Assembly (NCBI GenBank): GCA_005880875.1
Contig: VBJI01000078.1
Coordinates: 22,309 to 54,790 of the forward strand
Reading direction: 5' to 3'
Length of the DNA: 32,482 nt
Source of the DNA: Chloroflexota bacterium
Lineage (GTDB): Bacteria > Chloroflexota > Dormibacteria > CF-121
Shown one piece after another: positions 11,407 through 31,796 of this stretch. Position 1 is the first letter of the stretch; each line of letters begins with the position of its first letter. Both the position numbers and the translations under genes were made by a program. Under the pieces are notes generated by a model that was not told the origin of the DNA, searched no databases, and was given only the letters and a program-made list of their open reading frames with translations.

Positions 11407-12123
11407 TCAGTCGTTGCGACGATTTCCGAAGACGAGCGACGCGTAATACAGCAGAGTCAGCATGGCCCCGAACAGCGCCACCCAGTAGGTGAAGGCGGCC
11501 GCTCGCAGCATGCGACGGGCGCCGTCCTGCTCTTCGGGAAAGATCACGCCGCTGTCGGCCAGGAGGCGGAGCGCCCGCCGGCTCGCGTTCAGCTCAACCG
11601 GCGTGGTGATCAACTGGAAGACAACGACGGCCGCGAACAGGGCGAGGCCCACGATGGCTACATAGAACCCGAAGGTGCTGCGGGTAAAGATCGATAGGAA
11701 GAGGCCCGCCAGCACGATGAGTGGCCCGGCCTGCGATCCCAGGTTCGCTGCCGGAACCAGGTCGGATCGCCATCGCATCGCGAAGTAGCCCTGCCGGTCC
11801 TGCTGGGCGTGGCCGATCTCATGGGCGACCACCGCTTCGGAGGCGACGGAGCTGCCCATCGCGACCGCCTTCGAGAGGTTGAGGGTCCTGGTCCGCGGAT
11901 CGTAGTTGTCGCTCAGCTCGCCGTCGATCACCTGAATCGTGACGTCGTTGAGGCCGGCGCCGCTCAAGATCCGGCGGGCGACATCCACGCCTGTCATCCC
12001 GCTGGAGTTGCGGACCTGTGAGTAGCGCTGATAGGTGCGCTTGACCCAGCTGCTCGCGATGAAGCTGAGCACCATGATCGGCAGCGCGACGTAGAGCAGG
12101 TAGCCCCAGCCGAAGAAGAACAT
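11407..12123 (-). CDS. YugP-type neutral zinc metallopeptidase
   Basis: The 238-residue membrane protein belongs to the Zn_peptidase_2 (PF04298, YugP) family. One hydrophobic segment at residues 8-25 anchors the N-terminus. The zinc site is HEIGH at 101-105 (VVAHEIGHAQQ). Further hydrophobic segments follow (GPLIVLAGLFLSIF, YVAIVGLALFAAVVVFQLI and YWVALFGAMLTLLYYASLV). The family block TTPVELNASRRALRLL, which provides the third zinc-side acidic residue, is present. A TAGAAT hexamer (12136-12141, minus strand) lies 12 nt before the ATG. The stop is followed immediately by the abnormal start region of rlmN in the same frame. Substrates of this family are unknown. Confidence 0.92.
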   Translation of the reverse strand: MFFFGWGYLLYVALPIMVLSFIASSWVKRTYQRYSQVRNSSGMTGVDVARRILSGAGLNDVTIQVIDGELSDNYDPRTRTLNLSKAVAMGSSVASEAVVAHEIGHAQQDRQGYFAMRWRSDLVPAANLGSQAGPLIVLAGLFLSIFTRSTFGFYVAIVGLALFAAVVVFQLITTPVELNASRRALRLLADSGVIFPEEQDGARRMLRAAAFTYWVALFGAMLTLLYYASLVFGNRRND

Positions 12124-12264
12124 TGACCTGCCCGAATTCTACCCACGGCCGCGGCGCCCAATCGCCGCCCTTCGTCGATATCCTTCCGCCGACTCGTGGC
12201 CGGCTCGTCACTCTGCGTGAAAGGTTCCCCGACATGGGGTCGTTTCACCTGCATCGGGACGACC

Positions 12265-12414
12265 ATGCTGGAAGAGCCACAGCGACTCACCATGTCCGAC
12301 GTGTTCAGCCTCTTCGGCCGCCACGCCGAGGATACCCGGTGGGTGGCTTCCGCCGATTCGCAAGAATACCTGGCCGTCGTCCTTTATCTGGTACAGCGGA
12401 ACAACGCCCGCTGA
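12265..12414 (+). CDS. Mini-protein, first of two tandem paralogues (49 aa)
   Basis: A 49-residue frame (MLEEPQRLTMSDVF...) is about 71% identical (30 of 42 aligned positions) to the 46-residue frame at 12490-12630. The conserved core is LFGR, DTRWV, SADS, EYLAVV and YLVQR, and both end in AR. Most differences are conservative, which is strong evidence for coding. An in-frame ATG at 12292 is possible, but the paralogue aligns from LT upstream of it. I know no named family. The Asp/Arg/Trp core followed by a Tyr/Leu/Val-rich amphipathic helix suggests a small folded helical protein. No clear ribosome binding site or terminator is visible. Confidence 0.65.
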   Translation: MLEEPQRLTMSDVFSLFGRHAEDTRWVASADSQEYLAVVLYLVQRNNAR

Positions 12415-12463
12415 ACCGCCCCCACTGCCTCGCTTGTTATGATAGCATTGATGTTAGGTTAAC

Positions 12464-12472
12464 TGCTAAGCT
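12464..12472 (+). promoter_or_regulatory. Candidate extended −10 promoter for second mini-protein gene
   Basis: TGCTAAGCT lies in a short AT-rich island (about 12430-12490) between the two mini-protein genes. Its TGN-TAnnnT form matches an extended −10, predicting a leader of roughly 11 nt. It implies separate transcription of the second paralogue. Confidence 0.35.
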
Positions 12473-12489
12473 GGTATCAGGTTTAAGAG

Positions 12490-12630
12490 ATGTCAGAGAA
12501 ATTGACCCTCAGCGAGCTCTTTGCCCTCTTCGGGCGCACCTCCGACGATACCCGCTGGGTCGGATCGGCCGATTCGGAGGAATATCTGGCGGTCGTGACC
12601 TACCTCGTCCAGCGGTCCAGCGCCCGCTAG
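12490..12630 (+). CDS. Mini-protein, second of two tandem paralogues (46 aa)
   Basis: ATG 12490-12492 opens a 46-residue frame (MSEKLTLSELFALFGR...) ending in TAG at 12628-12630. It shares the LFGR, DTRWV, SADS, EYLAVV and YLVQR blocks with the preceding gene, and the similarity is higher in protein than in silent positions, as expected for selected coding sequence. The pI looks roughly neutral. There is no signal peptide, membrane segment or cysteine. It is preceded by its own AT-rich promoter-like region and followed by a Flp pilin gene 108 nt later. Function is unknown, and a regulatory or toxin-antitoxin-like role would be speculation. Confidence 0.7.
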   Translation: MSEKLTLSELFALFGRTSDDTRWVGSADSEEYLAVVTYLVQRSSAR

Positions 12631-12738: not shown

Positions 12739-12930
12739 ATGATCACCATATTGGCGGCGCGGATTCGGATGCTTCTCGGCTGGTCTGACAGCGAACGCGG
12801 TCAGGCTCTCGTCGAGTACTCCCTGATCATGTGCCTGGTCGTGATCGTGGTGCTGATCACGCTGATCGTGCTGGGCAACCAGGTGCGCAACACCTACTGC
12901 AACATCCAGGGCGCCGTCGTCAGCGCCTAA
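12739..12930 (+). CDS. Flp/Fap-type pilin precursor
   Basis: The 63-residue protein is a type IVb (Flp) prepilin. A 21-residue leader ends in Gly, followed by QALVEYSLIMCLVVIVVLI, giving the prepilin peptidase site G|QALVE with Glu at +5 of the mature protein and the hydrophobic assembly helix after it. The short polar C-terminus (NQVRNTYCNIQGAVVSA) is usual for Flp pilins. No tad secretion genes are in the window, so this pilin is orphaned here. A TTATAC sequence near 12690 may be part of its promoter. The stop overlaps the opposing acyltransferase stop (CTAA). Confidence 0.88.
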   Translation: MITILAARIRMLLGWSDSERGQALVEYSLIMCLVVIVVLITLIVLGNQVRNTYCNIQGAVVSA

Positions 12931-13803: not shown

Positions 13804-14670
13804 ATGAACGACGAGAGCCATATATCTTTGCCGGCTCTCCACGCGGACCTGAGCCAGCAGCAACAGGTCCAAATCCATGGCGGCCGGTCGGCAGCGCGGC
13901 GCGCGATGGCCGCCGGAAGAGAGGGGTTAAACATCGTCAACCGATACCGGATTCTGATCGTCGACGATGACGCCATGGCCCGCGAGATCCTCAAGCGGAT
14001 TCTCGAGCACGCCGGCTACGAGGTGATGACCGCAGGCAGTGGTCCGGAGGCCCTGCGCAAACTGCACGAGGGCATCCCGCATCTCGTCGTCGTCGACTTG
14101 ATGATGCCGGAGATGGACGGCTTCGAGCTCTGCCGCCGCATCAAGAGTCACCTGGACGTCCCGATCGTCATCCTGAGCGCGGTCGCCGCGGTCGAGAGCA
14201 AGGTCGAGGGACTCCAAATGTATGCCGAGGATTACATCGTCAAGCCGTTCGAAAAGGAAGAACTGGTCGCCCGGGTGCAGCGGGTGCTGCGCCGTTACGG
14301 CGAGTCGGCGGGCGTCGAGCAGCCGGAAGTCGTAATCGATGAGAGTTTGCAGATCAACTTCGTGCAGCACTGGGCTCGGGTGAAGGGGCAGCAGGTCACC
14401 CTGACGCCGACGGAGTCCAAGCTGCTCTTCCTCCTGGTCCGTAATGCCGGCCGGGTGGTGACCAACGAGACCTTGCTCGCCAAGGCCTGGGCAGGCGACG
14501 AGGAAGCCTACGAGGAAGGGCTGCGGGTCCACATCTCGCGGCTGCGGAGCAAGATCGAGCCGAATCCAAGCAAGCCGGTCTACATCCAGACCAAGCGCGG
14601 CGTTGGCTATCGTTTCGGCGCCAAGGTCAACTATCCCGCGGGGCAAGAGCCCATGGCACTGGCCGGATGA
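13804..14670 (+). CDS. OmpR/PhoB-family response regulator
   Basis: The 288-residue protein has a receiver domain (about 48-165) and a winged-helix DNA-binding domain (about 185-275). The receiver carries the acidic IVDDD, phospho-acceptor Asp98 in VVVDLMMPEMDG, Ser125 in place of the usual Thr, and Lys147 in YIVKPF. The DNA-binding part has LTPTESKLLFLLVRNAGRV and the recognition region GLRVHISRLRSKIEP, ending with the usual GVGYRF. An unusual 45-residue N-terminal extension rich in Gln precedes the receiver, so starts at 13906 or later are possible. AAGGA before ATG 13804 is very close. No kinase is adjacent on this strand. The operon at 15702-25638 is the nearest source of phosphoryl groups. 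Confidence 0.9.
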   Translation: MNDESHISLPALHADLSQQQQVQIHGGRSAARRAMAAGREGLNIVNRYRILIVDDDAMAREILKRILEHAGYEVMTAGSGPEALRKLHEGIPHLVVVDLMMPEMDGFELCRRIKSHLDVPIVILSAVAAVESKVEGLQMYAEDYIVKPFEKEELVARVQRVLRRYGESAGVEQPEVVIDESLQINFVQHWARVKGQQVTLTPTESKLLFLLVRNAGRVVTNETLLAKAWAGDEEAYEEGLRVHISRLRSKIEPNPSKPVYIQTKRGVGYRFGAKVNYPAGQEPMALAG

Positions 14671-14735
14671 GCCTGCGCACCATCGTGTTCGCCCTGATGG
14701 TGTTCGTCCTCTCCTTTCCGCTCTTGATGCACTAG
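14667..14735 (+). CDS. 22-residue membrane peptide coupled to the response regulator
   Basis: ATG 14667-14669 overlaps the regulator stop by 4 nt (ATGA), the standard arrangement for translational coupling. It opens a 22-residue frame, MSLRTIVFALMVFVLSFPLL plus two residues, ending in TAG at 14733-14735. The sequence is one uninterrupted hydrophobic helix with a single N-terminal Arg, as in single-pass membrane peptides. The zinc-ribbon gene starts 6 nt later. It has no known homologue to my knowledge and was judged by position and composition only. Confidence 0.5.
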   Translation: MSLRTIVFALMVFVLSFPLLMH

Positions 14736-14741
14736 GGCAAA

Positions 14742-15035
14742 ATGGGCCGCGCCGTCTGCCGGAAATGCTGGACCTGGCACGGCAGCGGTGCCACCGTCTG
14801 CCCCAGGTGTGGGGCTCCGCTCCAACCCGGCACCGCATCCGCGCCGCCGGAAGCGGGGGTGGCGTCCGCCGGCCCAGTGGCCCCTCCGCCGGTCTCACCG
14901 GCTGGACCGACCGCACTGGCCATGACGGGGACTATGGTGTCCAGGCGCCGGGCGCGATGGGTCTTTGTCGCCATCGCCGCGGCGGTCATGGTCATCGGCG
15001 CCGTCGCCACCATTCTGGTCCTGCAGGGATCGTAG
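14742..15035 (+). CDS. Zinc-ribbon membrane protein
   Basis: The 97-residue protein begins with a zinc ribbon: CRKCW and CPRCGAPL supply four cysteines in two CxxC pairs. A flexible Ala/Pro-rich linker (about residues 30-60) follows, then a basic RRRAR and one transmembrane helix (WVFVAIAAAVMVIGAVATILVL). The topology is probably zinc ribbon in the cytoplasm with a C-terminal anchor. It lies 6 nt after the 22-residue peptide and downstream of the response regulator, so all three are probably co-transcribed. Similar zinc-ribbon-plus-helix proteins are common in Chloroflexota-type genomes, with unknown roles. Confidence 0.78.
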   Translation: MGRAVCRKCWTWHGSGATVCPRCGAPLQPGTASAPPEAGVASAGPVAPPPVSPAGPTALAMTGTMVSRRRARWVFVAIAAAVMVIGAVATILVLQGS

Positions 15036-15091
15036 GGCAGCCCGACGACCAAGGCGCTGGCTCGCCTCCTGGCGCTGGACCTAGAGACCAC

Positions 15092-15097
15092 TAAACT
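15092..15097 (+). promoter_or_regulatory. Candidate −10 element before the GDT1-type gene
   Basis: TAAACT ends 6 nt before the GTG start at 15104 and matches TATAAT at four of six positions. There is no ribosome binding site (only CTCCCCCC lies between), so a leaderless mRNA is likely. Confidence 0.4.
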
Positions 15098-15103
15098 CCC
15101 CCC

Positions 15104-15697
15104 GTGGCCCACGCCCTCGGACTTGGCTTCACCGTCTTCGCCATCATCTTTCTGCTCGAGCTGCCCGACAAGACGGCGCTCGCCACTCTCCTCCTGGCGA
15201 CCCGCCATCGTCCCTTGCCGATCTTTCTCGGGTCGGCAGCGGCGTTCGTGATCCAGAGCGCGGTGGCGGTCGCGGCTGGCTCGCTGCTGAGCCTGCTGCC
15301 TCGAGAACCGATCCGGATCGGCGCCGGCCTGCTGTTCCTCCTGATGGCGGCGGTGATCGTGAGGCAGAACCTCAAAAAGGAAGAGGTCAAGGAGAAGGGC
15401 GACATCGAACGGGAGGAGCAACGGCACCGACGCCCCTTTGCCACGGCATTCCTCCTGGTCTTCGTCGCGGAATGGGGCGACCTCACGCAGCTCGCCACCG
15501 CGGCGCTGCAGGCGCGCTACCGCGATGCGGTGACGGTGTTCGCGGCCGCGACCATCGCGTTGTGGGCCGTGGCGGCCATTGCGGTCGTCCTCGGAAATCG
15601 GCTCGGCGCCTGGATCCCGCAGCGCCCCCTGCAATTCGCCGCGGCGGGCGTGATGGTCCTCGCCGCGATTGCGTTGATCACTGGCATCCTCGGCTAG
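15104..15697 (+). CDS. GDT1/TMEM165 (UPF0016) family cation transporter
   Basis: The 197-residue polytopic protein has the two inverted repeats of the UPF0016 family, each with its acidic motif: ELPDKT (residues 19-24) and EWGDLT (122-127). These motifs line the ion path of Ca2+/Mn2+ : H+ exchangers such as yeast Gdt1 and bacterial MneA. About six hydrophobic helices are visible. A charged central loop (KKEEVKEKGDIEREEQRHRR) separates the halves. Pro in place of Gly in the first motif is seen in many bacterial homologues. The start is GTG 15104. It converges on the histidine kinase gene with a 4-nt gap. Manganese export is the most likely role, by family inference. Confidence 0.88.
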   Translation: MAHALGLGFTVFAIIFLLELPDKTALATLLLATRHRPLPIFLGSAAAFVIQSAVAVAAGSLLSLLPREPIRIGAGLLFLLMAAVIVRQNLKKEEVKEKGDIEREEQRHRRPFATAFLLVFVAEWGDLTQLATAALQARYRDAVTVFAAATIALWAVAAIAVVLGNRLGAWIPQRPLQFAAAGVMVLAAIALITGILG

Positions 15698-15701
15698 AGC
15701 C

Positions 15702-17966
15702 TCAGGCCGCTGTTGTCAGGTCGATCGCCGCGGGCACGGCCCGCTGCGGGATCGTGAAGGTAAACGTGCTGCCCTGGCCCGGCGTACTCTTCACCCAGAT
15801 CCGCCCGCCGTGCATCTCGACCAGCTGGCGGGAGATGGCGAGCCCCAGGCCGGTGCCCTGGTATTTGCCGCTGATTCCGCTCTTTCCCTGTTGAAAGCTC
15901 TCGAAGATCCGCTCCGTGTCTTCGAGCGGCACCCCAATGCCGGTGTCTCGCACACCGATGCGGAGCTCGGCGCCCTGGCGCTCCGCGGTGACGCGAACGC
16001 TGCCGGATTCGGTGAACTTGATGGCGTTCCCGAGGAGGTTCAGCAACACCTGCTTGAGCTTCGGGCCATCGGCAAAGACGCGTCCCACCTCGGGCGACAC
16101 GCTCGCGCTGAGCTCCAGCCCTTTGGTCTTCGCCAGCGAGCTGACGCTTTCGACGCATTCCGAGATCAGGGGTTCGATCTCCACCTCGCCACGATGGAGC
16201 TGCGCTTTCCCCGCCTCGAGCTTCGAGATGTCGAGCAGGTCGTTGATCAGTGCCAGCAGGTGCTGGCCGTTCTGGGCAATGATGTCGACGTCCTGCCGCT
16301 GCTCGCGGGTGAGCACCCCGCCATCGCCCTCGAGCAGCAACTGCGAGAACCCGAGAATTGAGTTCAAGGGGGTGCGCAACTCGTGGCTCATGTTGGCGAG
16401 AAATTCCGACTTGTGCTGATTCGCGCGCTGCAGCTCGGCATTGACCGCGCCCAGGCGTGCCGTCTGCTCCGTCGCCAGATGGAATAGGTGCGCCTCCTGA
16501 ATCGCCGTCGCGGCGTGCTGGGCGAATAGGGTGAGGAGCTCGATCGTGTTACGGTCCAGCGGGCGCCGGTGGTAGACGGCGAGCACCCCGAGCAGCTGGT
16601 CGCCGATCACGAGTGGGAAGCCGGCGAAGGCCTGGATGTTTTCCTCGGCCATCCATGGACTGAGCCCAACCTGCCGGTGGTTCGCCGGGTCGTTGGTCAC
16701 GATCGGCACCCGAAGCTCCGCCACCTGGCCGATTTCGCTCATGCCGCGTTCCACCCGGCTCGGGACGGGCGGCGCATTGATCGTGATGTGATGGCCCGCC
16801 CGGCGCCAGAGGGCCCCGTCGCTCGGCTCGAGCAACCACACCTGCGCCGCGGCGAAACCGAGATTTCCGGTGAGCGCGGTGGCAACCACGTCGAGCAACT
16901 CGGGCTCGAACAGCTTCTGGTTCATCTGGTCGATCGATTGGTTCAGCAGCTCCAGGCGGCGGGCACGCTTCTCGGTCTCCTCGAAGAGACGCACATTTCG
17001 CAGGGCGACCGCCAGCTGTTGCGCCAGGACCTCCAGGGCCTCCTCTTCCCAGCGCGTCAGGCGCCGCTGCTCGTCGTGGGTTTGGAGGTGCAACACGCCG
17101 AACACCTTGCCTTCCAGGATTACCGGCGTCCCGAACACCCTGGCGTAGCGGGCTCGGTTCAGCGCCGCCCCGTCGAACAGCGGCGGCTGTGCCAGCATCA
17201 CCAGGCGACGCTCGCGCACCACGCGACCCACGATGCCCTCACCGGCTGAGATCGCGCTTCCGGCGACCGCTTCGGGCAGGCGGACCGCCGCCTGCAGTGT
17301 GAACACGCCTCGATCCTCGTCCAGCAAAACCACCGCACCCGAATCCATCTGCAGCAGCTCCATCCCGCAGCGGATAACGGTATTCAGCATGTGCGTCACG
17401 TCGAGCTGTCCGACGAGCTCGCCAAGGACGTTGCGCAGCTGCTCGGTCTGGTCGAGCCGGCGCCGCGTCCCGCGGATCTCGGTATTCATGGCCCGCACCG
17501 CGGCGCCCAGCCCGGTGATGACCGCGACCGTCGGAATCGCGCGCAGGATCGCGTCGCGCACCGAGATCGCGAGCCCGAGGTCGCTGGTCTGGAACAGAAT
17601 GATGCCGCTCGTCAAGAACAGGCTGGTGCCGATGCCACCCCATAGGTCGAACCGGAAAATTGCCTCGGCCGCCACCAGCGCGTAGAGCAGGTACGGGACG
17701 CTCGAGGACGGCGTCGCGAATAGCAGGATCCAGCCGCTCACCACCAGGTGGTCGAGGACGAGCAAGAGCACAGCCATCGGCCGGGCGAAGCGAGGGATCG
17801 CCTTCTTCTGGATCGCCACCGCGGCGACGCCGTTGTAGGCGGCCAGCAGTCCGGCCAGCACGATCGTGACCGGCACGGATGCCGACGGAAGCCAGAACAG
17901 AAGACCGAACGGAATGGCGACCGCCGCGAAGCGGAGCCTGACGAACCACCGGTCGAGGGCAGTCAT
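15702..17966 (-). CDS. Membrane GAF-GAF sensor histidine kinase (last gene of signalling operon)
   Basis: The 754-residue protein has four to six transmembrane helices in residues 10-160, then two GAF domains (about 175-330 and 340-495), a HisKA dimerisation domain with His528 in [16 protein letters not shown], and a HATPase domain. The latter carries the N box [15 protein letters not shown]1 DTGIGV, F box IFESFQQ and G2 GTGLGLAI. It is a complete, apparently active kinase. There is no receiver on the same chain, so phosphoryl groups must go to other proteins, for instance the receivers encoded upstream in the same operon. It begins 15 nt after the stop of the 815-residue scaffold gene. GAF ligands are unknown. 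Confidence 0.93.
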
Positions 17967-17981
17967 CCGCGCCCTCGCTGG

Positions 17982-20429
17982 CTAGGCGGCCTGGCTGGTT
18001 TGAAGGTTGTTGATCATCTCGAGGAAGCGGTCCTTTCCGAAGTCCCCCTTCTGGATGATCGACTGGATATTCCCCTGCAGGCGCTCCCGGTCCTCGCTGG
18101 TGATGTTTTTCGCCGTATAGATAAGGATGGGAATCTGGCTGGCGGCCGGGTCTTCCCGAAGTTTGGAGACCACCTCGAAGCCGTCGACGTCCGGCATCAT
18201 CAGGTCGAGGATGATGAGGTCGGGCTTCTTCTTCAAGGCCAGCTCGAGGCCGGCCTTCCCCCCGTCGGCGACCATGACTTCCATGTTGAAGGGCTTCAGC
18301 ATGGCCTTGACCAACCGGATGTTCTGCGGGTCGTCGTCCACGATCAAGATCGATGACGGCGTCTTCTTGCCGCGCTTGCCATCGGCCAGCAGGTCGAACT
18401 TGACCATCATCTGCAACAGCTGCTGCCGGTCGATCGGCTTGGTCAGGAAGTCAGCCTGGCCGATGTCGAACGGTAGGGACTCCTTGTTGATCTTCGAGGT
18501 GAGCACGATCGGGATATCCTTGGTCTTCGACTCGCGCCGCAGATCGTAGACGAGGCCGCTTCCCCCGTTGGGCGGGAGCTGAGTGTCGATCAAGACGGCG
18601 AGCGGCTGGAGCTGCACCGCCTTGCGCAGCGCCTCCTGGGCGCTGGCCGCGATCACCACTTCGTAACCAGCGTGGCTGAGGAAAGGCTCGATCCGCTCCT
18701 TCACCGCCGGGTCGTTGTCGGCCACCAGGATGACGGGCGGCTTGTTGCCGCCGCCGACCGGCGGGACCATCTGCACCGGCCGTTCCTGGATCCCCGCCTC
18801 CTGCTTGGCGAATTCGATCAGCTCACGGATGTGCTCGACCAGCCGCTTCCCACTCTCATTGATATGGGCGACGAACTCGCGCCGCTCCTCCGGGGTCGTC
18901 TTGTTCGCTTTCTCGTCGAGCAGGATCTCGGAGAAGCCGATGATCGCATTCAGCGGCGAATTGAGGTCGTGGCTCTGGTCGTAAATAACCCGGAACTTCG
19001 CCTCGAAGTCGCGCTTTGCCTGGGTCAGCGCCGGCGCGGCGTCCTTGTTCTTTCCGCTGGCGGTCAGCTCGGTCTTGAGTCCATCGAGCTGCGCCTGCAT
19101 GGCCCGCTTCTCGGCTTCGTAGCGCGCCAGTACCTGGCTGGTGGGCGGACCGCTGCCGGCGGCTTTGCGCGCCTCGTCGAGCTGGAGCTTGAGGGAGGCC
19201 TTCTCCCGCTGCCAGGCGGTCTCCAGCTCTTTCGCCTCGTTCGCGCGCCGGCTGTGAAGCTCATTGGTCTCCGCCATCATCTCGGAGAGTTGGCCCTGCA
19301 CCCGCTCCAGATCGACTTTGAGCTGGTTCTTCTCGGAGGTGAGGCGCTGTTCGCGCCCGGTCCACTCCTGGGCCTTTCGACCGGTTTCGCCGGCGAGGTC
19401 CGCGTGCAGCGCCTTGATCTTCTCGTAGTCCTGCTGCATCGCCGCCAGCCTCGCCACCGCGTCCTGCATCTGTTTTTTGAGTCCGGCTTTCTCTTCGGCC
19501 ACCGAGGCTTCTCGGCTCTGCCAGTCCTTCTCCAGCGCCTTCACCTTGGCCAGCAGCGCCGAGCGCTCATCGCTGAGACGCTGGAACTCCGCCTCGGCCT
19601 TATCCAGGTCAGCGGCCTTCCGGCGCGCCTCGTCTAGCTGGCCCTGCAGCAGCTTGCGATCCGCCCGGAATTGGGCGTCCGCTGCCTGGGCGCCTTGCTC
19701 GAGGCGGGCGACATCGGCAATCAGGCGCTGCCGCTCGGCCTGCCATTTATCACGGGCCGCCTTGAGCGGCTCGATCTCGGCCTGCGCGACTTTGAGCTGT
19801 TGCTGGAGCTGCGCGTTCAGGTCGGTGAGCCGCGACTTTTCCTGGGTCAGGTCGGCCCGTGCCTTCTGCCATTCCTGTTCCAGCTCCGCCTGCTTCGCCA
19901 CGGCGGCATCCCGGTCTTTGAGCAGAGTCTCCCGGTCCATCGCCCACTGGATCTGCGCCGACTGCAGACTGTCGAGGTCTTCCTGGGCACTCTTGAGATC
20001 GGTCCGCATCTTCTTCTGGTCGTTCTCGAACTTTTGCCCCAGCTGCATCCGTTCCTGCTCGAGCTGGCGCAACTGGCCGCGACGCTCTTCGTCGCGGGCC
20101 TTGGCGCGGCCGACGTCGTCCTTCAGCCGGCCGAGCTCGACCTGGGCCCGATCGTGGCTCTGCTGGAGGTCCTGGTGTCCCTGCTTGAGGGCGTCGTGCT
20201 GGTCGAGCAGCGCCTGACGGTCCATCGCCCATTGGAGCTGCGCGTTTTGCAGTTCGTCCAGCTCCTGCTGTTTCTCCGCCAGCTGGCGCTTGCTGAGGGC
20301 GAGCTCCCGCTCCTTCTCTTCGAGCTGGCCACCGATGTCTTCTTGCAGCGCCTGGAGGTGGGTGATGAACTGCTGGTTCTGCTGCAGGATGTCGGCGAAG
20401 GACTTCGCCTTGGGCGCTTCGGGAGCCAT
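17982..20429 (-). CDS. Coiled-coil scaffold with orphan HisKA domain and two receivers
   Basis: The 815-residue protein is a long coiled coil (about 10-475), a HisKA-like phosphotransfer helix pair (about 480-545) and two receivers (about 566-670 and 692-800). The H-box SHDLNSPLNAIIGFS keeps the phosphorylatable His487 but is altered from the usual SHELRTPL. No HATPase domain follows, since the sequence passes directly through a proline/glycine linker to the first receiver. Receiver 1 has Asp615 (VLIDTQLPPNGG) and FLTKPI. Receiver 2 has Asp742 (ILDLMMPDVDG) but IIQKG instead of a KP motif. The coiled coil contains an internal repeat (QWAMDR at 66-71 and 161-166). The start shares 1 nt with the upstream stop. 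It probably acts as a phosphorelay hub. Confidence 0.92.
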   Translation of the reverse strand: MAPEAPKAKSFADILQQNQQFITHLQALQEDIGGQLEEKERELALSKRQLAEKQQELDELQNAQLQWAMDRQALLDQHDALKQGHQDLQQSHDRAQVELGRLKDDVGRAKARDEERRGQLRQLEQERMQLGQKFENDQKKMRTDLKSAQEDLDSLQSAQIQWAMDRETLLKDRDAAVAKQAELEQEWQKARADLTQEKSRLTDLNAQLQQQLKVAQAEIEPLKAARDKWQAERQRLIADVARLEQGAQAADAQFRADRKLLQGQLDEARRKAADLDKAEAEFQRLSDERSALLAKVKALEKDWQSREASVAEEKAGLKKQMQDAVARLAAMQQDYEKIKALHADLAGETGRKAQEWTGREQRLTSEKNQLKVDLERVQGQLSEMMAETNELHSRRANEAKELETAWQREKASLKLQLDEARKAAGSGPPTSQVLARYEAEKRAMQAQLDGLKTELTASGKNKDAAPALTQAKRDFEAKFRVIYDQSHDLNSPLNAIIGFSEILLDEKANKTTPEERREFVAHINESGKRLVEHIRELIEFAKQEAGIQERPVQMVPPVGGGNKPPVILVADNDPAVKERIEPFLSHAGYEVVIAASAQEALRKAVQLQPLAVLIDTQLPPNGGSGLVYDLRRESKTKDIPIVLTSKINKESLPFDIGQADFLTKPIDRQQLLQMMVKFDLLADGKRGKKTPSSILIVDDDPQNIRLVKAMLKPFNMEVMVADGGKAGLELALKKKPDLIILDLMMPDVDGFEVVSKLREDPAASQIPILIYTAKNITSEDRERLQGNIQSIIQKGDFGKDRFLEMINNLQTSQAA

Positions 20430-20794
20430 CAGGCGGCCTTCCGACCCTGCTGGAGGTAGCGGTCGACGGCGGCGCGCATGGCGTCGAGGTGGGCACTCAT
20501 CGCGCCCAGCTGGTCGACGCGTTCCTGCTCCAGCTGGCGAAGCTGCTCGTGCCGTTCGGCGTCACGCTGATTGGCGTGGGCCAGTTCTTCGTGGAGCCGC
20601 TTCATCTCCGCCTGGGACTGGTCGTAGGAGAATTTCAGCTCGTCGAGTTCCTTTTTCCGGGCGTCGTGTTCCGCCACGAGACCCTCCAGGTTGTGCACCA
20701 GTTCCTGGTTGAGTTGAAGGATCTCCGTGATGGGACGGCCGGGCTTCGACGCCGGCTCGCCCGGTCGTCCGGGTTTCTGCGACTGCTCGGTCAT
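20429..20794 (-). CDS. Small coiled-coil protein related to the scaffold N-terminus
   Basis: The 121-residue protein has a Pro/Gly/Lys-rich first 20 residues and then an uninterrupted coiled coil. It resembles two parts of the neighbouring 815-residue protein: ILQLNQELVHNL matches ILQQNQQFITHL, and RDAERHEQLRQLEQER matches RDEERRGQLRQLEQER (20 of 37 identical over the second region). The C-terminus RYLQQGRKAA also resembles the end of the receiver encoded just upstream (RYLQQGRLKTA). It starts with TAATG and ends with TGATG overlaps on both sides, so expression is tightly linked to its neighbours. A role as a hetero-coiled-coil partner of the scaffold is an inference. No enzyme domain is present. 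Confidence 0.85.
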   Translation of the reverse strand: MTEQSQKPGRPGEPASKPGRPITEILQLNQELVHNLEGLVAEHDARKKELDELKFSYDQSQAEMKRLHEELAHANQRDAERHEQLRQLEQERVDQLGAMSAHLDAMRAAVDRYLQQGRKAA

Positions 20795-21183
20795 TACGCC
20801 GTCTTCAGCCGCCCTTGCTGGAGATAACGGGCGACCTCTCCGGGCAGGCCCTGAGGATCAACGGGCTTGGGGATGTAGCCGTCGCAGCCCGCGCCCAGGA
20901 TCTTTTCCCGGTCGCCCGCCATGGCATGCGCGGTCAGCGCGACCACGACCACCCCCGCCATGCGCGCGTCGGAGCGGATCTTGCGGGTGACGGCCAGCCC
21001 ATCTTCTCCGGGAAGCTGGATGTCCATGAGCACGATATCCGGCAGCTCACGGGTCATCTCGGCCAGGCACTCGGCCCCGCTCCCCGCCTTGCGGACGGAG
21101 AACCCTTTCTTTTCCAGGAGGAACTGGGCCAGGCGCAAATTGACCGGGTTATCTTCGACGATCAAGACCTTGCCGGCGGTCAC
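20794..21183 (-). CDS. Stand-alone receiver (CheY/DivK-like)
   Basis: The 129-residue protein is a single receiver domain: VLIVEDN, phospho-acceptor Asp in VLMDIQLPGEDG, Thr in ALTAHA and Lys in YIPKPV. It has no output domain, like DivK or Spo0F, and could shuttle phosphoryl groups between the kinases and the scaffold. The GTG at 21181-21183 is chosen because AAGGAGG lies 7 nt before it, a strong ribosome binding site, and because the receiver begins right after. A frame open to 21321 is an overlap with the upstream gene. The start lies 35 nt inside the hybrid kinase gene. The C-terminal RYLQQGR is shared with the next protein. Confidence 0.92.
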   Translation of the reverse strand: MTAGKVLIVEDNPVNLRLAQFLLEKKGFSVRKAGSGAECLAEMTRELPDIVLMDIQLPGEDGLAVTRKIRSDARMAGVVVVALTAHAMAGDREKILGAGCDGYIPKPVDPQGLPGEVARYLQQGRLKTA

Positions 21184-23575
21184 GGCCTGTCCTCCTTCGC
21201 CTCTGAACGATGTCCAGCTCCTTGATGGCGCGCAATACGGCATCTGGCTGGGAGAGGCCAGATGGTATAACGGCGCTCCACGCCGTCGCTGGCACCCTCG
21301 GTGAAACTTCGCCCAGGGCAACCAGCGCGGGCTGGCCGGGAAGCCCGCGCAGTCCCAACACCCACTCAGGTTCAGGGGGCCCCAGCACGACCACGTCGGG
21401 GGCGGCCGCCCGAGCCTTCTCCAGGGCCTCCTGGAGGCCGGGAGCGCGGAAGACCTCGAACCCCTCCTCGACGAGGGCGGCGGCCAGCGGCGCCAGCGCT
21501 TTGCGCTCGCGGTGGACCAACAGCACCCGTACCCGGTCTCGCCGGCGCTTGATGCCCTGACCGACCCGGCGCAGTTCGTCCTGCATCGCCTTGGTCACCC
21601 AGGGCTTCGCGACATAGCCGACCACACCGAATTGCGCCATCAAGGGCTCGTTCTTCGTCACCGAGCAGACCAGCACGGGGACGTCAGCGGTCGCGGCCCG
21701 GGACCGCAGCTCCTGCAACACCTGCCAGCCGTCCTTCACCGGGAGCACCGTTTCCATCACCACCAGGTCGGGCAGGATTTCCATCGCCTTGCGGACGGCC
21801 TCGTCGCCGTCCTTGGCGTGCGCGACTCGGAAGCCGACTCCCTGGATCTCGGCCGTCATCCGCTGGCTGCTTGCGGGATCGTCCTCCACCACCAGCGCCA
21901 GCGGGAGCTCCATGCTCTCGATCGTCTGGGCGGCCTCCTCGGCAGGGGCCTCCAGGGCGGGACGCGGCTCCCGCGGGATCGTAAAGGTGAACGTCGACCC
22001 CTTGCCGAATTTGCTCTCCGCCCAGATCCGCCCGCCATGCATCTGGACGAACCGCCGGCAGAGGGCAAGGCCCAGGCCGGTTCCCTGGTAGCGGCGGGTA
22101 TAGGAGCCGTCGATCTGCTCGAACTCGCGGAAGAGCTTGGGCAGATCTTCCGCCTTCATCCCGATACCGGTGTCCTGGACCGAAACGGTGAGCTGGTCGG
22201 GCGTGTCTTTCACGGTGATCGTGATCTGACCCGGTGGGGGCGTGAATTTCACGGCGTTCGAGAGCAGGTTGTAAAGCACCTGCTTGAACTTGCTCCGGTC
22301 CGCTTTGATCACGCTCGCCTCCACCGCCCCGATGGTCGTCAGCTGAAGCCCCTGCTGGCGGGCCATCGGCTCGAGGATCGCCGTCACCTCCTGCAGCACC
22401 TCGGCCACGCGCATCTCTTCGGCCTTGAGCTCCATCTTCCCCGCCTCGATCTTGGCGAGGTCGAGGATGTCGTTGATCAACCCCAGCAGATGCTGACCGC
22501 TGCTATGGATGTTGCGGAGGAATTCCGTTCGCTCGCCCCCGGTCAGGTTCATGGTGACGTCGAGCAGAATCTCGCTGAATCCGAGGATGGCGTTCAGCGG
22601 CGTACGCAGCTCGTGCGACATGTTGGCGAGGAACTCCGACTTGTAGCGGTTCGACTGCTCGAGCTGGCGATTGACCTGCAGGATTTCCTCGTCGGCGCGG
22701 CGCAGCGCGGCGTGCTGCCGCATCAGGTAGCGGTTGGAATCCTTCAGCCGCGCGACCAGGCTCTGGCGCTCCGCCCGCAACCGCTGCTTCTCGAGGTTGC
22801 GATCCAGCATCTCGCGCAGCCGTTGCAAGTCGATCGGCTTGGCGATGTAGTCATCAGCGCCACCGCGGAGCGCCTCAGCCGCCACTTGCTCGGAGCCGTA
22901 GGCGGTCATCATCACCACCACCGCATCGGGGAAATCGCGCAGCATCTGGGGTAGCAGGGCGAGTCCGCTCTCCTCCGGCATCTGCACATCGAGGAAGATG
23001 AGCGCCGGGCGGCGGCCGTCGAGTTGCCGCCGTGCCTGGGTCGCATTCGGAGCCGTGACGACCTCGAAGCCCTGTTTCGAGACGGCCTTGGTCAGGAAGG
23101 CGCGGTTGTCCGGATCGTCGTCGATCGCCAGCAGGATGGGCCGCTGTTCCAGCTCCGGCTCGGCGCCCAGCAGCGTCCGCACCGCCTCCACCAGGTCCTG
23201 ACCGGCGCCGAGCTCCCGGCCCGAGCCCGTCGACAGTGGGCCGAGGTCGGTGAGGAACCGGTCCGCCCCGGCAGCCAGGGCGCGCTTGCCTTCGTCGGCG
23301 TCGACGTGGACGCCGGCCGTCAGCAGCACCGGGATGTTCGTGGTCGCCGGATTGCTCTTCAGGATCTCGCAGACCCGAAGTCCATCGATTCGCCGTAACA
23401 GGAGGTTCAGGACAATGGCGTCTGGCAATTCCTCCCGGGCACGGTCCAGCGCTTCGAGGCCGTCCTGGGCCGTCAGGACGTGAAAACCCTCGCGCTGCAG
23501 CCGGTCGACAATGGCCTTCAGGCGTTCAGGATCGTCGTCGGCGATCAGGATGCGCCGAGTGCTGCCGTCGGTCAT
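21149..23575 (-). CDS. Hybrid histidine kinase with four receiver domains, three lacking the phospho-Asp
   Basis: The 808-residue cytoplasmic protein reads receiver 1 (8-110), receiver 2 (147-250), a linker helix, HisKA with His321 ([17 protein letters not shown]), HATPase (425-535; NLLSNAVKFT, DTGIGM and GTGLGLAL), receiver 3 (559-665) and receiver 4 (683-785). Only receiver 2 keeps Asp (Asp196, IFLDVQMPEESG). Receiver 1 has Asn57 (VLNLLLRRIDG), receiver 3 has Glu608 (VMETVLPVKDG, a possible phosphomimic) and receiver 4 has Gly732 and lacks the acidic pocket (VLLVHRE). The tail is very basic (RRRRTGRDRRQGLDRRR). The start overlaps the upstream kinase by 4 nt. It has no membrane or sensory domain, so pseudoreceivers may mediate docking. 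Confidence 0.93.
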   Translation of the reverse strand: MTDGSTRRILIADDDPERLKAIVDRLQREGFHVLTAQDGLEALDRAREELPDAIVLNLLLRRIDGLRVCEILKSNPATTNIPVLLTAGVHVDADEGKRALAAGADRFLTDLGPLSTGSGRELGAGQDLVEAVRTLLGAEPELEQRPILLAIDDDPDNRAFLTKAVSKQGFEVVTAPNATQARRQLDGRRPALIFLDVQMPEESGLALLPQMLRDFPDAVVVMMTAYGSEQVAAEALRGGADDYIAKPIDLQRLREMLDRNLEKQRLRAERQSLVARLKDSNRYLMRQHAALRRADEEILQVNRQLEQSNRYKSEFLANMSHELRTPLNAILGFSEILLDVTMNLTGGERTEFLRNIHSSGQHLLGLINDILDLAKIEAGKMELKAEEMRVAEVLQEVTAILEPMARQQGLQLTTIGAVEASVIKADRSKFKQVLYNLLSNAVKFTPPPGQITITVKDTPDQLTVSVQDTGIGMKAEDLPKLFREFEQIDGSYTRRYQGTGLGLALCRRFVQMHGGRIWAESKFGKGSTFTFTIPREPRPALEAPAEEAAQTIESMELPLALVVEDDPASSQRMTAEIQGVGFRVAHAKDGDEAVRKAMEILPDLVVMETVLPVKDGWQVLQELRSRAATADVPVLVCSVTKNEPLMAQFGVVGYVAKPWVTKAMQDELRRVGQGIKRRRDRVRVLLVHRERKALAPLAAALVEEGFEVFRAPGLQEALEKARAAAPDVVVLGPPEPEWVLGLRGLPGQPALVALGEVSPRVPATAWSAVIPSGLSQPDAVLRAIKELDIVQRRRRTGRDRRQGLDRRR

Positions 23576-25638
23576 GCGGCCCTCCCCTGGGCGTGGGCCA
23601 GCAGTGGCAAGCGAGGGATCAGAAAGCGAAAGGCGCTCCCCGTACCTGGGACGCTTTCCACCCAGATCTGACCACCCTGCAGTTCGACCAGCCGCCGGGA
23701 GAGCGCCAGCCCCAGCCCAACGCCCTCGTAGTCCCGCGAGGTCGAGCCGTCAACCTGGCGGAATTCCTCGAAGAGGCGGGCCTGGTCCTCCGGCTTGATG
23801 CCGATCCCGGTGTCGCGGACTTCGACGACGGTGCCGGGCTGCGTCTCCATCGCACTGATCACGACGCTGCCGTGATGTGGGGTGAACTTGATCGCGTTGT
23901 TGACCAGGTTGTGGACCACGTGGCGCAGGCTGCGCGGATCGAAGACCACCTGCATGGCGCGATCGATCTGCGAGGTGACCGCCAGCTCTTTCTGGGTCGC
24001 CGCGGCGGCGTTTTCCGCCAGGGCGGCGTCGACCGCCTCGGCCAGCTGGCAGGGCGCGGGATGCAGCTCGAGCCGCCCGGCCTGGATGTGGGTCAGTTCG
24101 AGGATGTCATTGATCAGCTTCAGCAAGCGCCGGCCGCTGGTATGGATGGTTTCCGCGAATTCGCCGCGTTCCGCCTCCGACAGCTCTGGCGTGGTCCGGA
24201 TGATCTCGGAGAACCCGATGATGGCGTTCAGCGGTGTGCGCAGCTCGTGCGACATGTTGGTGAGGAATTCCGACTTCATCCGATCGGCTTCCTGCAACTC
24301 GAGGTTGGCACGCCGCAGCATTTCGATGGTCTGTCGTTCGCGCTGGAACCGCCGCGCGTTGTCGAGCGCGACCGCGGCCTGGTTGGCCAGGATCTGCAGC
24401 ACCTGCATCAGCGTGGCGTCGAAGGCGCGGACATCGTGGAAATAGACCGAGACGGTGCCGACGAACTCGCGTTCGAGGAACATCGGCAGCCCCAACGCCG
24501 CCCGCCAGCCATAGCGCTGGGCCAGGGGATCGAGCGGGAAGCGGCCGTCGAGCTGGATATCCTCAGAGAAGACCGGGCGCTGTTCGATCACGACCTGGGT
24601 CACGAGCCCCGGCGAGACGTGCGTGAGCGGTTTGCCGTGGATATTGGGGTCGACGCCCTCCCCCACTTCGATCACCTGTTCTGCCGGGGCGGTGCCCTGG
24701 GTCAGCGTGATCAGGCAGGACGCGGCGTCGGAGACGCCGATCACCGCGCGCGCCACCCCCTGGAGGAGCGCGGTCGGACCCACCGTCGTCGCGGTCAGCG
24801 CCTGGGAAACCTGCCGAAGCATTTCCATCGAGGTATCGAGCCGGAGCGCCTGCTGCCGGGTCTGCTCGAAGAGGAACGTGTTCTCGAGCGAGACGGCGAC
24901 CTCCGCCCCCAGGGAAGCCGCCAGCTTGACGTCGTAATTCCCGCTGAAGGTGCCGTGCCGTTTGTTGGCCAGCAAGAGCACGCCGACCGGCCTGCCGCCG
25001 GAACCCAGCGGCACCAGCAGCAGGTCGCGATACCCGAAGGTCTGGGGCAGCAACTGCCCGGCCTCGATGTCGTGCAGGCAGTCCTCGACGATGGTGGGCT
25101 GCTGGGTGACGAACACGCGACCGATCAGGGTCGAGGCGTTGGCGCCAAAGCGCAGCTGGTTCAGGCGCATCTGGTTGAAGAGCCGGCTCTCCCGCATGCC
25201 CGAGGGAGCGGCCGGCGCGATCAATGCCTCGAGGCCTTCCTGGTAGAGGAAAAAGCCGCACATCTCGACGTCGAGTAGTTCCGCCAGCTTCGTGGTCAGG
25301 CTGCCCAGATCCTCGCCCAGCTTGGTCAGGTTCGACACTGCGGTCGCCGTCTCGAAGAAGTGGCTGAGCTCCTGAAGATTCTGGTCGGCTCGCCGGGAGA
25401 GCTCGAGGTTCTCCTGGACCAATCGGAAGTACTTGAAGCTCCAGAAGCCGGTGAGAACCATGACCGGAAGAAAGAGAACGGCCAGGAAGTAGGTCACCGG
25501 CGAGGGCGCCCACCACCGGGCGACGTAAATCAGGAAGAGCTCCGTCAGGCTGCCGAGCACGAACCACAGCCGCCAGTTGAAGCGGTTGCGGGAGTTCGGA
25601 AATGGAACCGGTCGGGGGACGAAGTCCTCTTTGGCCAC
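23572..25638 (-). CDS. GAF-GAF sensor histidine kinase (first gene of signalling operon)
   Basis: The 688-residue protein has two transmembrane helices (about 24-41 and 48-66) with a minimal external loop, a short coiled coil, GAF1 (about 95-255), GAF2 (about 270-430), HisKA with His464 ([17 protein letters not shown]) and a HATPase domain (HNLVNNAIKFT, DTGIGI and a GVGLGLAL G2 box with Val for the usual Thr). The small extracellular loop suggests that signals are sensed in the cytoplasm by the GAF domains. It starts with GTG 25636-25638, touched by a 14-bp palindrome, and overlaps the hybrid kinase gene by 4 nt. It heads a six-gene transcript. Confidence 0.93.
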   Translation of the reverse strand: MAKEDFVPRPVPFPNSRNRFNWRLWFVLGSLTELFLIYVARWWAPSPVTYFLAVLFLPVMVLTGFWSFKYFRLVQENLELSRRADQNLQELSHFFETATAVSNLTKLGEDLGSLTTKLAELLDVEMCGFFLYQEGLEALIAPAAPSGMRESRLFNQMRLNQLRFGANASTLIGRVFVTQQPTIVEDCLHDIEAGQLLPQTFGYRDLLLVPLGSGGRPVGVLLLANKRHGTFSGNYDVKLAASLGAEVAVSLENTFLFEQTRQQALRLDTSMEMLRQVSQALTATTVGPTALLQGVARAVIGVSDAASCLITLTQGTAPAEQVIEVGEGVDPNIHGKPLTHVSPGLVTQVVIEQRPVFSEDIQLDGRFPLDPLAQRYGWRAALGLPMFLEREFVGTVSVYFHDVRAFDATLMQVLQILANQAAVALDNARRFQRERQTIEMLRRANLELQEADRMKSEFLTNMSHELRTPLNAIIGFSEIIRTTPELSEAERGEFAETIHTSGRRLLKLINDILELTHIQAGRLELHPAPCQLAEAVDAALAENAAAATQKELAVTSQIDRAMQVVFDPRSLRHVVHNLVNNAIKFTPHHGSVVISAMETQPGTVVEVRDTGIGIKPEDQARLFEEFRQVDGSTSRDYEGVGLGLALSRRLVELQGGQIWVESVPGTGSAFRFLIPRLPLLAHAQGRAA

Positions 25639-27897: not shown

Positions 27898-28287
27898 CTA
27901 GCTCAGATCGACGGCCAGCCTTTTCACCCGGGTGCGGATCTCGTCCCGGATTATGCGAACCTGCGGCAGTGGCTGCCCCGCCGGATCCAGCAGATCCCAG
28001 TCGATGTAGGTCTTCCCCGGAAGGTAAGGACACTCGTCCCCGCATCCCATGGTGACCACCACGTCAGCCCAAAGGGTGAGGGCGTCGGTGAGCTTCTGGG
28101 GGCGACGGCCGGAGACGTCAATGCCCACCTCCTGCATGACATCGACCACTACCGGATGCACGCGCTCCGCGGGACGCGTTCCAGCGGACTGTGATTGATG
28201 CCGGCCATTGACGAGCTGTTCAAAGAAGGCCTGGCTCATCTGGGAGCGGCCGGCGTTGTGATGACAGACGAACAGGACGCGCGCCAC
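27898..28287 (-). CDS. arsC: Arsenate reductase (low-molecular-weight phosphatase type)
   Basis: The 129-residue protein reduces arsenate to arsenite using thiols from thioredoxin or mycothiol-like systems. The phosphatase loop VCHHNAGRSQMSQAF gives CX5R (Cys8, Arg14). MGCGDECPYLPG carries Cys82 and Cys86 for disulphide relay, and KTYIDWDLLDPAGQP supplies the general-acid Asp loop. Length is normal. It starts 5 nt after the arsR stop, so arsR-arsC is one operon. The spacing of the second cysteine pair differs from the Staphylococcus enzyme (82 and 89), so the exact thiol partner is uncertain. Confidence 0.94.
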   Translation of the reverse strand: MARVLFVCHHNAGRSQMSQAFFEQLVNGRHQSQSAGTRPAERVHPVVVDVMQEVGIDVSGRRPQKLTDALTLWADVVVTMGCGDECPYLPGKTYIDWDLLDPAGQPLPQVRIIRDEIRTRVKRLAVDLS

Positions 28288-28292
28288 GGGCC

Positions 28293-28631
28293 CTAGACGA
28301 GCACCTCCAGCAGGGCGCGGGTTTTGGCGTCGAGGTGGCTGTTCAGCCGATAGTAAGCCCAGATGCCCGCCTTGGTGACATCGACCAGGCCGGCGTCCCG
28401 GAGTTTGCCCATGTGATGCGAGATCGTGGGCTGGCTCAGCTCGAAGGCGGCCGTGAAGTCGCAGATGCAGAGCGGCTGCGCCGAGCGTTTCAGCACACCG
28501 ATCATCTGCAGCCGGGTGGGATCGGCAAGGGCCTTGAGCAGCTCAACCGAAGCGTCCACCCTGGTCAGGGGAAGCGGAATGGACGGCGGGGAGCACACGC
28601 CCTTGACCCGTTCGGGCAGCGTCGACTTCAT
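28293..28631 (-). CDS. arsR: ArsR-family arsenic-responsive repressor
   Basis: The 112-residue winged-helix repressor has ELLKALADPTRLQMIGVLKRS and the recognition helix region LSQPTISHHMGKLRDAGLV. LCICDF (Cys55, Cys57) matches the CxC arsenite-binding motif of classical ArsR helix alpha3. A third Cys13 near the N-terminus could complete a three-sulphur site. It would release DNA upon binding arsenite and derepress arsR-arsC and arsM. A TAGACT hexamer preceded by TGG ends 6 nt before the ATG, suggesting a leaderless transcript. Two candidate operator copies lie in the divergent promoter region. Confidence 0.95.
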   Translation of the reverse strand: MKSTLPERVKGVCSPPSIPLPLTRVDASVELLKALADPTRLQMIGVLKRSAQPLCICDFTAAFELSQPTISHHMGKLRDAGLVDVTKAGIWAYYRLNSHLDAKTRALLEVLV

Positions 28632-28637
28632 CCCCGC

Positions 28638-28646
28638 AGTCTACCA
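28638..28646 (-). promoter_or_regulatory. Extended −10 promoter for arsR-arsC
   Basis: On the minus strand TGGTAGACT (TGN plus TAGACT) ends 6 nt before the arsR ATG. The upstream region where RNA polymerase would bind overlaps the first ArsR-like box, consistent with autorepression. Confidence 0.5.
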
Positions 28647-28649
28647 GCT

Positions 28650-28667
28650 CCATTGACATTCGTCTAT
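28650..28667 (+). promoter_or_regulatory. Candidate ArsR box 1
   Basis: CCATTGACATTCGTCTAT matches the second copy at 28683 at 14 of 18 positions (CCATyGACAwwCGTCkAT). It contains the arsM −35 TTGACA and overlaps the arsR promoter, so bound repressor would block both genes. Confidence 0.6.
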
Positions 28668-28681
28668 GCGTCTGCTACGAT
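28653..28681 (+). promoter_or_regulatory. Sigma70-type promoter of arsM
   Basis: TTGACA (28653-28658), a 17-bp spacer and TACGAT (28676-28681) preceded by TGC give a near-consensus promoter, the best in the window. The predicted start is near 28688, leaving a leader of about 35 nt before the arsM ATG. Confidence 0.8.
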
Positions 28682-28682
28682 T

Positions 28683-28700
28683 CCATCGACAAACGTCGAT
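28683..28700 (+). promoter_or_regulatory. Candidate ArsR box 2
   Basis: CCATCGACAAACGTCGAT includes the perfect dyad ATCGAC-AAAC-GTCGAT and lies over the predicted arsM transcription start. It is 33 bp downstream of box 1, about three helical turns, so two dimers could bind the same DNA face. Confidence 0.6.
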
Positions 28701-28722
28701 CTTTTGAAGCGAGGGATTTGGC

Positions 28723-29499
28723 ATGGAGAGCATTCGCGAGTCGGTTCGTGCGAAGTACGCGGAAACGGCCATTAGGCTGCGCGGCGGCGCAAGCTGTTGC
28801 GACCCGAGTTGCTGCGGCGGATCCGACGCCGCCAGCGGCCCGATCGGCCAGGACGAATACTCGACGAGCGATGTCGCCGACCTCGGCCTTTCGCTGGGCG
28901 CCAGCCTTGGCTGCGGCAATCCGACGGCGCTGGCGCAACTCCATCCCGGCGAGGTGGTCCTCGACCTGGGCAGTGGTGCCGGCCTGGATGTCCTGCTTTC
29001 CGCCCGTCGGGTCTCCCCGGGCGGCCATGCCTATGGGGTCGACATGACCGACGAGATGCTGGCGCTGGCGAATGAGAACAAGGCGAAGGCCGGAGTCGAC
29101 AACGCCACGTTCCTGAAGGGCAATATCGAAGCGATTCCGCTTCCGCCCGCATCGGTTGACGTGGTGATCTCGAACTGCGTCATCAACTTGGCACCGGACA
29201 AACGGGCCGTGTTGCAGGAGGCCTTCCGGATCCTGAAGCCAGGTGGCCGGCTGGCGGTCTCTGACATGGTCGAGATCGAGCCCCTACCACGGGAGGTAAA
29301 AGCGGCGGTCGATGCCTGGGCCGGTTGCGTGGCCGGCACCATTCCGGTGGAGGCGTATCGCGAGGCGGTGACCGCGGCGGGCTTCGCCAACGTCGATGTC
29401 GAGGTCACCAATACCTTCGGGCCTGGTGAGGCCGGGTTGCCGCCCGGAGCTGGAAAGATCGCCAGCGCCTTCATCCGTGCCGCAAAGCCCGCACGCTAA
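28723..29499 (+). CDS. arsM: Arsenite methyltransferase
   Basis: The 258-residue SAM-dependent enzyme methylates arsenite to mono- and dimethylarsenicals. Motif I is VLDLGSGAGLDVLLS, followed by GVDMTDEML and ILKPGGRLAVSD. The three conserved cysteines that bind As(III) are Cys64 (SLGCGNP), Cys152 (ISNCVINL) and Cys202 (AGCVAGT). Two Cys pairs near the N-terminus (SCCDPSCCGG) form the extra metal-binding motif seen in many bacterial ArsM proteins. The gene is divergent from arsR-arsC and ends at a strong bidirectional terminator. No arsenite efflux pump is present in the window, so detoxification here seems to rely on reduction plus methylation. Confidence 0.95.
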   Translation: MESIRESVRAKYAETAIRLRGGASCCDPSCCGGSDAASGPIGQDEYSTSDVADLGLSLGASLGCGNPTALAQLHPGEVVLDLGSGAGLDVLLSARRVSPGGHAYGVDMTDEMLALANENKAKAGVDNATFLKGNIEAIPLPPASVDVVISNCVINLAPDKRAVLQEAFRILKPGGRLAVSDMVEIEPLPREVKAAVDAWAGCVAGTIPVEAYREAVTAAGFANVDVEVTNTFGPGEAGLPPGAGKIASAFIRAAKPAR

Positions 29500-31409: not shown

Positions 31410-31726
31410 TGATTTGTCGCTTCGTCCTCGGGCGGCGCCTGGAAGTATTTCAATAGCTCTTCGAGCGCTCGGGCCGCTTCCGGATCTCGGAGTAGCCGTT
31501 CCTGCATTTCCTGCACCTGCTTGACCAGTTCCTTCGCCTGCGTCTCCTGTGCGACCTGGAGGAGCACCGGCTGGCTTGCCGCGGAGACGATCATCTGGAC
31601 CTGCTGACGGAGCATCTCCACGCCCTGACATCCGAGACAGGTTCCGGCATTGTTGCAATGACAGAGTTGCAGCCGCAGGTTGTCCAGCTCGCGCTGCATC
31701 GGTGAAAGGTCGATCGGACGGCTCAC
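31406..31726 (-). CDS. Cys-rich small helical protein
   Basis: The 106-residue protein starts at GTG 31724-31726 and has four cysteines in a tight cluster (CHCNNAGTCLGC, residues 22-33) that could bind zinc or another metal. The rest is helical and Gln/Glu-rich (LRQQVQMIVSAASQPVLLQ, VQEMQERLLRDPEAARALEELLKYF), with coiled-coil character. No membrane or signal segment is present. I do not recognise the family. A TAAGCT hexamer ends 6 nt before the start, suggesting a leaderless mRNA. It overlaps the sortase stop by 4 nt. Confidence 0.8.
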   Translation of the reverse strand: MSRPIDLSPMQRELDNLRLQLCHCNNAGTCLGCQGVEMLRQQVQMIVSAASQPVLLQVAQETQAKELVKQVQEMQERLLRDPEAARALEELLKYFQAPPEDEATNH

Positions 31727-31732
31727 CTTTCA

Positions 31733-31738
31733 AGCTTA
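31733..31738 (-). promoter_or_regulatory. Candidate −10 element before the Cys-rich gene
   Basis: TAAGCT on the minus strand ends 6 nt before the GTG start. The same hexamer forms the extended −10 before the second mini-protein gene at 12467. Confidence 0.35.
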
Positions 31739-31796
31739 GCGGGAAGCGCCGGGAACTTTTCGCCACGATCTTCGTCGCAGCGGTGAGGTGAAGGTC

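Follow-up and report, generated by a model that had tools for sequence, protein, structure and literature searches.

A conserved tandem pair of sister microprotein genes belongs to a small protein family found, as far as searched, in one family of soil Chloroflexota

Two adjacent short genes, B and A, in a 32,482-nucleotide stretch of DNA from a Chloroflexota bacterium (the window, meaning the whole stretch analysed) encode sister proteins that belong to a small family, and the existence of both genes is near certain. Gene B (12265-12414, + strand) starts with ATG and encodes a 49-residue protein, MLEEPQRLTMSDVFSLFGRHAEDTRWVASADSQEYLAVVLYLVQRNNAR. Gene A (12490-12630, + strand) also starts with ATG, is separated from B by 75 nt and encodes a 46-residue protein, MSEKLTLSELFALFGRTSDDTRWVGSADSEEYLAVVTYLVQRSSAR. 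A sequence-only reading of this DNA had placed the two frames correctly and given their lengths as 46 and 49 residues. The A and B proteins are identical at 30 and positive at 41 of 45 positions (BLASTP, E 5e-24), and the 71% identity of that reading is reproduced as 30/42 when the count begins at the shared LT. A and B are the sole copies found in the window's own genome. The pair, which had been described as tandem paralogues, recurs in tandem on one contig in 17 of the 18 genomes sampled from the window's own family of soil Chloroflexota (f1, with four sampled genera), and the likeness of the two genes is therefore far beyond chance. As judged by homology searches and as far as these extend, the microprotein family is new and restricted to this one lineage. 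The dispersed paralogues, the restriction to f1 and the dedicated upstream elements are additions to the sequence-only reading.

Codon changes in both genes are predominantly silent. The 17 A genes have a median dN of 0.024 and a median dS of 0.76, with 1874 silent and 307 replacement codon differences in 136 pairwise comparisons and 215, 121 and 2018 differences at codon positions 1, 2 and 3, respectively. The B set contains 16 of the 17 copies, with the truncated copy of genome G064 left out, and has a median dN of 0.036 and a median dS of 0.69 (7 of 120 pairs excluded from the latter as saturated), with 1489 silent and 284 replacement codon differences in 120 pairwise comparisons and 179, 85 and 1648 differences at the three positions. 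The dN/dS values are about 0.03 and 0.05 for A and B, respectively; the underlying codon-difference counts span related genomes and are not independent, and members were chosen by protein similarity, a bias that is limited because all 17 pairs lie in tandem on one contig. Group D also shows silent-biased substitutions. Selection on the protein, claimed by the sequence-only reading with the proviso that it would fall without an excess of silent changes, is thus supported by a clear excess in each gene. High-GC DNA is rich in spurious frames, and A and B could be read as chance open frames of this kind, but the silent-biased codon differences already refute this explanation, and the fixed start and stop, the synteny and the paralogy leave it a negligible probability.

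Among the 51 profile matches listed, one is a 15-residue fragment (G061:C160) that was left out, which gives a family of 50 members in 18 genomes. A and B are each present in 17 genomes and are accompanied by five C-type copies, five D-type copies and six singletons. Genome G062, which is 82% complete, carries a C-type copy only. The B copy of G064 (L049, G064:C295) is missing its start and N-terminus, owing to either a deletion or a wrong assembly at that place. In 26 aligned members, residues A27, D28, E31, L33, Y38 and V40 are invariant, and L5, F14, Y32, V36 and R42 are kept in at least 90%; the invariant residues make the DTRWV-x-SADS-x-EYLAVV core, to which attention had been drawn at the outset, the most conserved part of the protein.

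The A and B proteins are distinguished by fixed differences at three positions (L10/V, G25/A and T37/L; 17 A and 16 usable B copies), and their roles are therefore probably separate. B, C and D are each monophyletic, and A is not monophyletic in either tree, although trees of 38 codons carry little weight. Each of the four sampled f1 genera has A and B as distinct genes, which is most simply explained by a duplication older than the split of these genera. In the D-type copies (L033, L034, L036, L037 and L038), none of the codons ATG, GTG and TTG occurs where the start is expected. Just upstream is a conserved TACACT/TAGAAT-GGCGCC; CTG is the sole near start, and a near-leaderless CTG start is possible.

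The distribution of the family was examined at several taxonomic depths. With A as the query, 18 of 110 genomes of the class matched, all of them f1, and no convincing relative was found in the other 92. A 26-row profile (alignment A1) matched all 18 f1 genomes; homologues, whose complete absence had been named beforehand as evidence against the genes, are thus present throughout the sampled f1 genomes. Against 400 genomes of the phylum, the same profile matched 11, consisting of nine f1 genomes and two weak matches, G077 (E 0.0016) and G295 (E 0.0076). The G077 match was rejected as a relative and taken as chance because inspection of the locus revealed no family relative at that place. A GTDB-wide peptide-pattern scan returned 41 stretches, 29 of which were confirmed, at 28 loci; all 28 come from soil assemblies titled 'Chloroflexi bacterium isolate CF_*', which may be linked to the Angelo grassland study (PMC6784897). 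The peptide-pattern scan of viral contigs gave 14 stretches with none confirmed, and no relatives were found in plasmid and phage collections.

The sequence-only reading had called the family unfamiliar, in agreement with the lack of a convincing match in the collections searched. None of 26 members matched NCBIfam or PADLOC, and Pfam and PHROGs gave chance-level matches only (E 0.04-0.32; at the Pfam cut-off of E<=1 there were three matches, judged chance). A profile search of the PDB returned no match, and the peptide cores were not found as text in the set of papers searched.

Two small adjacent genes with dispersed paralogues could also form a toxin-antitoxin module of two genes or a module for a peptide signal. 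The two products, however, are sisters of one fold rather than unlike partners, their position is syntenic in 17 of 18 genomes, with the low dN/dS given above, and no PADLOC, phage or plasmid relative accompanies them. Conservation extends over the whole length, unlike that of a leader/core peptide. Such a module is very unlikely, and paralogues held in synteny, with no mobile patchy distribution, do not place the pair among toxin-antitoxin systems.

Both proteins are predicted to be helical. The best A model, built with the 26-row alignment, has a pLDDT of 82 and contains helices at residues 7-13, 23-26 and 29-45, and the other four A models have pLDDT values of 63-69. The B model, built from the single sequence without an alignment, has a pLDDT of 72 and helices at residues 10-21 and 30-48. 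A strand is absent from both the A and B models, which are of modest confidence. A Foldseek search with the A model gave one match (E 9.5) that is not a counterpart, and a VIA search gave no match. The calculated pI values of the two proteins are 4.7 and 5.05, and the net charge is about -2.4 for both.

A tentative mechanism can be proposed for A and B, in which they may be acidic two-helix regulatory microproteins that dock on a partner via D28/E31/Y38/R42 and act in a Sda-like manner; we consider this the likeliest reading, though short of probable. Each protein would be acidic (pI about 5) and soluble and would fold as a two-helix hairpin whose long C-terminal helix packs via L33, V36 and V40 on the short N-terminal helix (LTxSELFALFGR). 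The D28/E31/Y38/R42 stripe would lie on the opposite helix face, as read from residue spacing on the modelled helix, and dock onto a partner protein. Like Sda with KinA, the microprotein would inhibit or adapt a regulatory protein; a histidine kinase or a response regulator is the most plausible target, and A and B would have different partners or form a mixed pair. The helical models, the acidic pI, the invariant polar residues D28, E31 and Y38 and the near-invariant R42 are consistent with a hairpin regulator. Against it stand the low pLDDT of most A models, the absence of a structural counterpart and the missing sequence relation with Sda. The rival readings, from more to less likely, are a DNA-binding autoregulator, an accessory of the pilus and the toxin-antitoxin module discussed above.

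A and B each have their own conserved upstream element. An operator-like inverted repeat, TGATA-N30-TATCA, is located just upstream of A (12440-12479, + strand). The TGATA..TATCA dyad precedes A in 17 of 17 cases, compared with 14 of 8500 shuffled upstream regions. Its N30 form is found before A in 15 of 18 f1 genomes and is the sole occurrence in 14 of those 15, the exception being G000 with one extra site near a pyrB-like gene; the reversed control of the pattern gave no matches. The N7 form occurs in G051 and G052, and both forms occur in G067. In TGATA-N30-TATCA, the 40-base span is fixed and the middle is variable. No RNA covariation was found in the TGATA/TATCA arms, which makes a DNA site more probable than a hairpin in RNA; an RNA element upstream of A was rejected, given that the five outer pairs are invariant and RNAalifold predicts no pairs. 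An Rfam search of the window returned a tRNA only.

The region upstream of B contains a palindrome, TCAC-N-GTGAA (12208-12221, + strand), and TTCACGCnGCGTGAA or TCAC..GTGAA is found upstream of B in 15 of 17 cases. It also contains GTGAAAGGnT-N14-CGTTTCA (12217-12247, + strand). With a gap of 13-18 allowed, GTGAAAGGnT/CGTTTCA has a single exact match in each of 11 of the 15 genus genomes, judged by position to be upstream of B every time, and may be an ECF-type promoter or operator. The B element was rejected as a regulon marker; a search with up to three mismatches matched 9 of 9 genomes and is uninformative because the reversed control matched 8 of 9. Elsewhere in the window, an inverted repeat, TGAAAGGT-N14-ACCTTTCA, is located at 31703-31732 and is followed at about 31752-31776 by GGAAC-N16-CGTC, which resembles an ECF sigma promoter and lies ahead of a lipoprotein-like gene at 31788. 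Locus L111 has an arrangement similar to that at positions 31702-31776 of the window.

Single-site regulators are most often autoregulators. The confinement of the N30 element to the A locus in 14 of 15 carrier genomes would suit a role of A, or of an A/B mixed dimer, as a minimal DNA-binding autoregulator at its own TGATA-N30-TATCA, and the protein length resembles that of ribbon-helix-helix repressors. We nevertheless regard autoregulation as unlikely, given that both proteins carry a net negative charge, that neither model contains a strand, that none of the 26 members has a Pfam DNA-binding match and that B and D have no TGATA-N30-TATCA upstream in the alignments seen. In the hairpin-regulator reading, a separate, locus-specific DNA-binding regulator would set the amount of A through this element.

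The A loci listed share a recurrent gene order, consisting of a Zn-peptidase (-), B, A, a pilin (+), a hexapeptide protein (-) and an OmpR-type regulator (+). In the window, the Zn_peptidase_2 gene (11407-12123, - strand; Pfam PF04298, E 2.3e-75) is divergent from B and upstream of it. In 15 of 17 genomes the Zn-peptidase shares the contig of the pair and adjoins it; it is absent in G053 and G066. No such neighbour is present in sister families. Within the class, Zn_peptidase_2 was detected in f1 only (15 of 110 genomes, E<=1e-20). At positions 13804-25638 of the window, the OmpR-type regulator (13804-14670) is the first of a lengthy series of response regulators and (hybrid) histidine kinases; it and the first kinase of the series recur in related loci. 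Positions 27898-29499 of the window, as read from sequence, look like an arsenic cluster, in which a small protein resembling arsenate reductase is encoded together with an ArsR-like regulator and a protein resembling arsenite methyltransferase.

The gene downstream of A encodes a Flp-type pilin (12739-12930, + strand), for which the class III signal match is weak. It adjoins A in 16 of 17 genomes (all except G052), 88-206 nt away and on the strand of A, and this adjacency would also fit a pilus role. The A/B pair could be an accessory or regulator of the pilin gene. Flp-type pilins are general, however: 107 of 110 class genomes have members, also where A and B are absent. No pilin was seen beside C, D or the singletons, and B and A have upstream elements of their own. 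Together, these points make a pilin accessory decidedly unlikely.

The paralogues have other surroundings. In three genomes, C follows a gene pair for a NarL-type regulator and a kinase of PAS-GAF-HisKA_3 type, as assigned by Pfam in one of these three loci; the other two C-type copies (G054 and G059) are on short contigs with no kinase in view. Within the genus, D has moaA on one side and an rpiB-like or pterin dehydratase gene on the other; in G067 its neighbours are different. The six singletons have mixed neighbours. The position of C supports a signalling role for the hairpin regulators, with the link to kinases resting on one locus type, as only C adjoins a two-component pair. A broader version, in which the family was born in f1 as a multi-copy set of hairpins, each with its own partner, with A and B near-housekeeping and A controlled by its element, would be a long shot.

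Small lineage-restricted proteins are usually dismissed, and orphan small protein families are an already known phenomenon. The A/B family is under strong purifying selection and duplicated, with subfamilies that carry fixed differences, and offers a test case of a newborn microprotein becoming indispensable in uncultured soil bacteria. The combination of strong constraint with a dedicated upstream element makes the family unusually testable, and a peptide such as WVGSADSEEYLAVVTYLVQR would be diagnostic of translation of the microproteins. If the family is indeed a multi-copy set of tuners, it would constitute a lineage-specific layer of signalling control that is largely invisible to current annotation.

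Three known groups of small regulators invite comparison. Ribbon-helix-helix repressors of the Arc/MetJ type (PF01402) have about 45-50 residues and are often autoregulated from palindromic operators. A and B resemble them in length but are acidic, are modelled without an N-terminal strand and have no Pfam match to them. Spo0E-like aspartyl phosphatases (PF09388) are small two-helix regulators of two-component signalling with an SQELD signature. The small two-helix build is also predicted for A and B, but SQELD is absent and the 26 members have no Pfam match to this group. Sda, the Bacillus subtilis sporulation kinase inhibitor (PF08970; PDB 1pv0, 3fyr and 3d36), has 46 residues, like A. Homology to Sda was rejected, as PF08970 is unmatched (E<=1) in the 26 members and in the window's genome and hhalign aligns 1 column. 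The A/B family also differs from Sda in being multi-copy and, as far as searched, confined to one Chloroflexota family. Sda is a 46-residue helical hairpin that binds the DHp domain of KinA (PMC7430163). The comparison is drawn from protein size, from the predicted shape and from the kinase that C adjoins; Sda binds a kinase, and the present family is likened to it here by the adjacency of C to a kinase gene. The likeness would comprise the two-helix hairpin that is tentatively predicted for A and B, and includes a small stand-alone gene with a dedicated control region.
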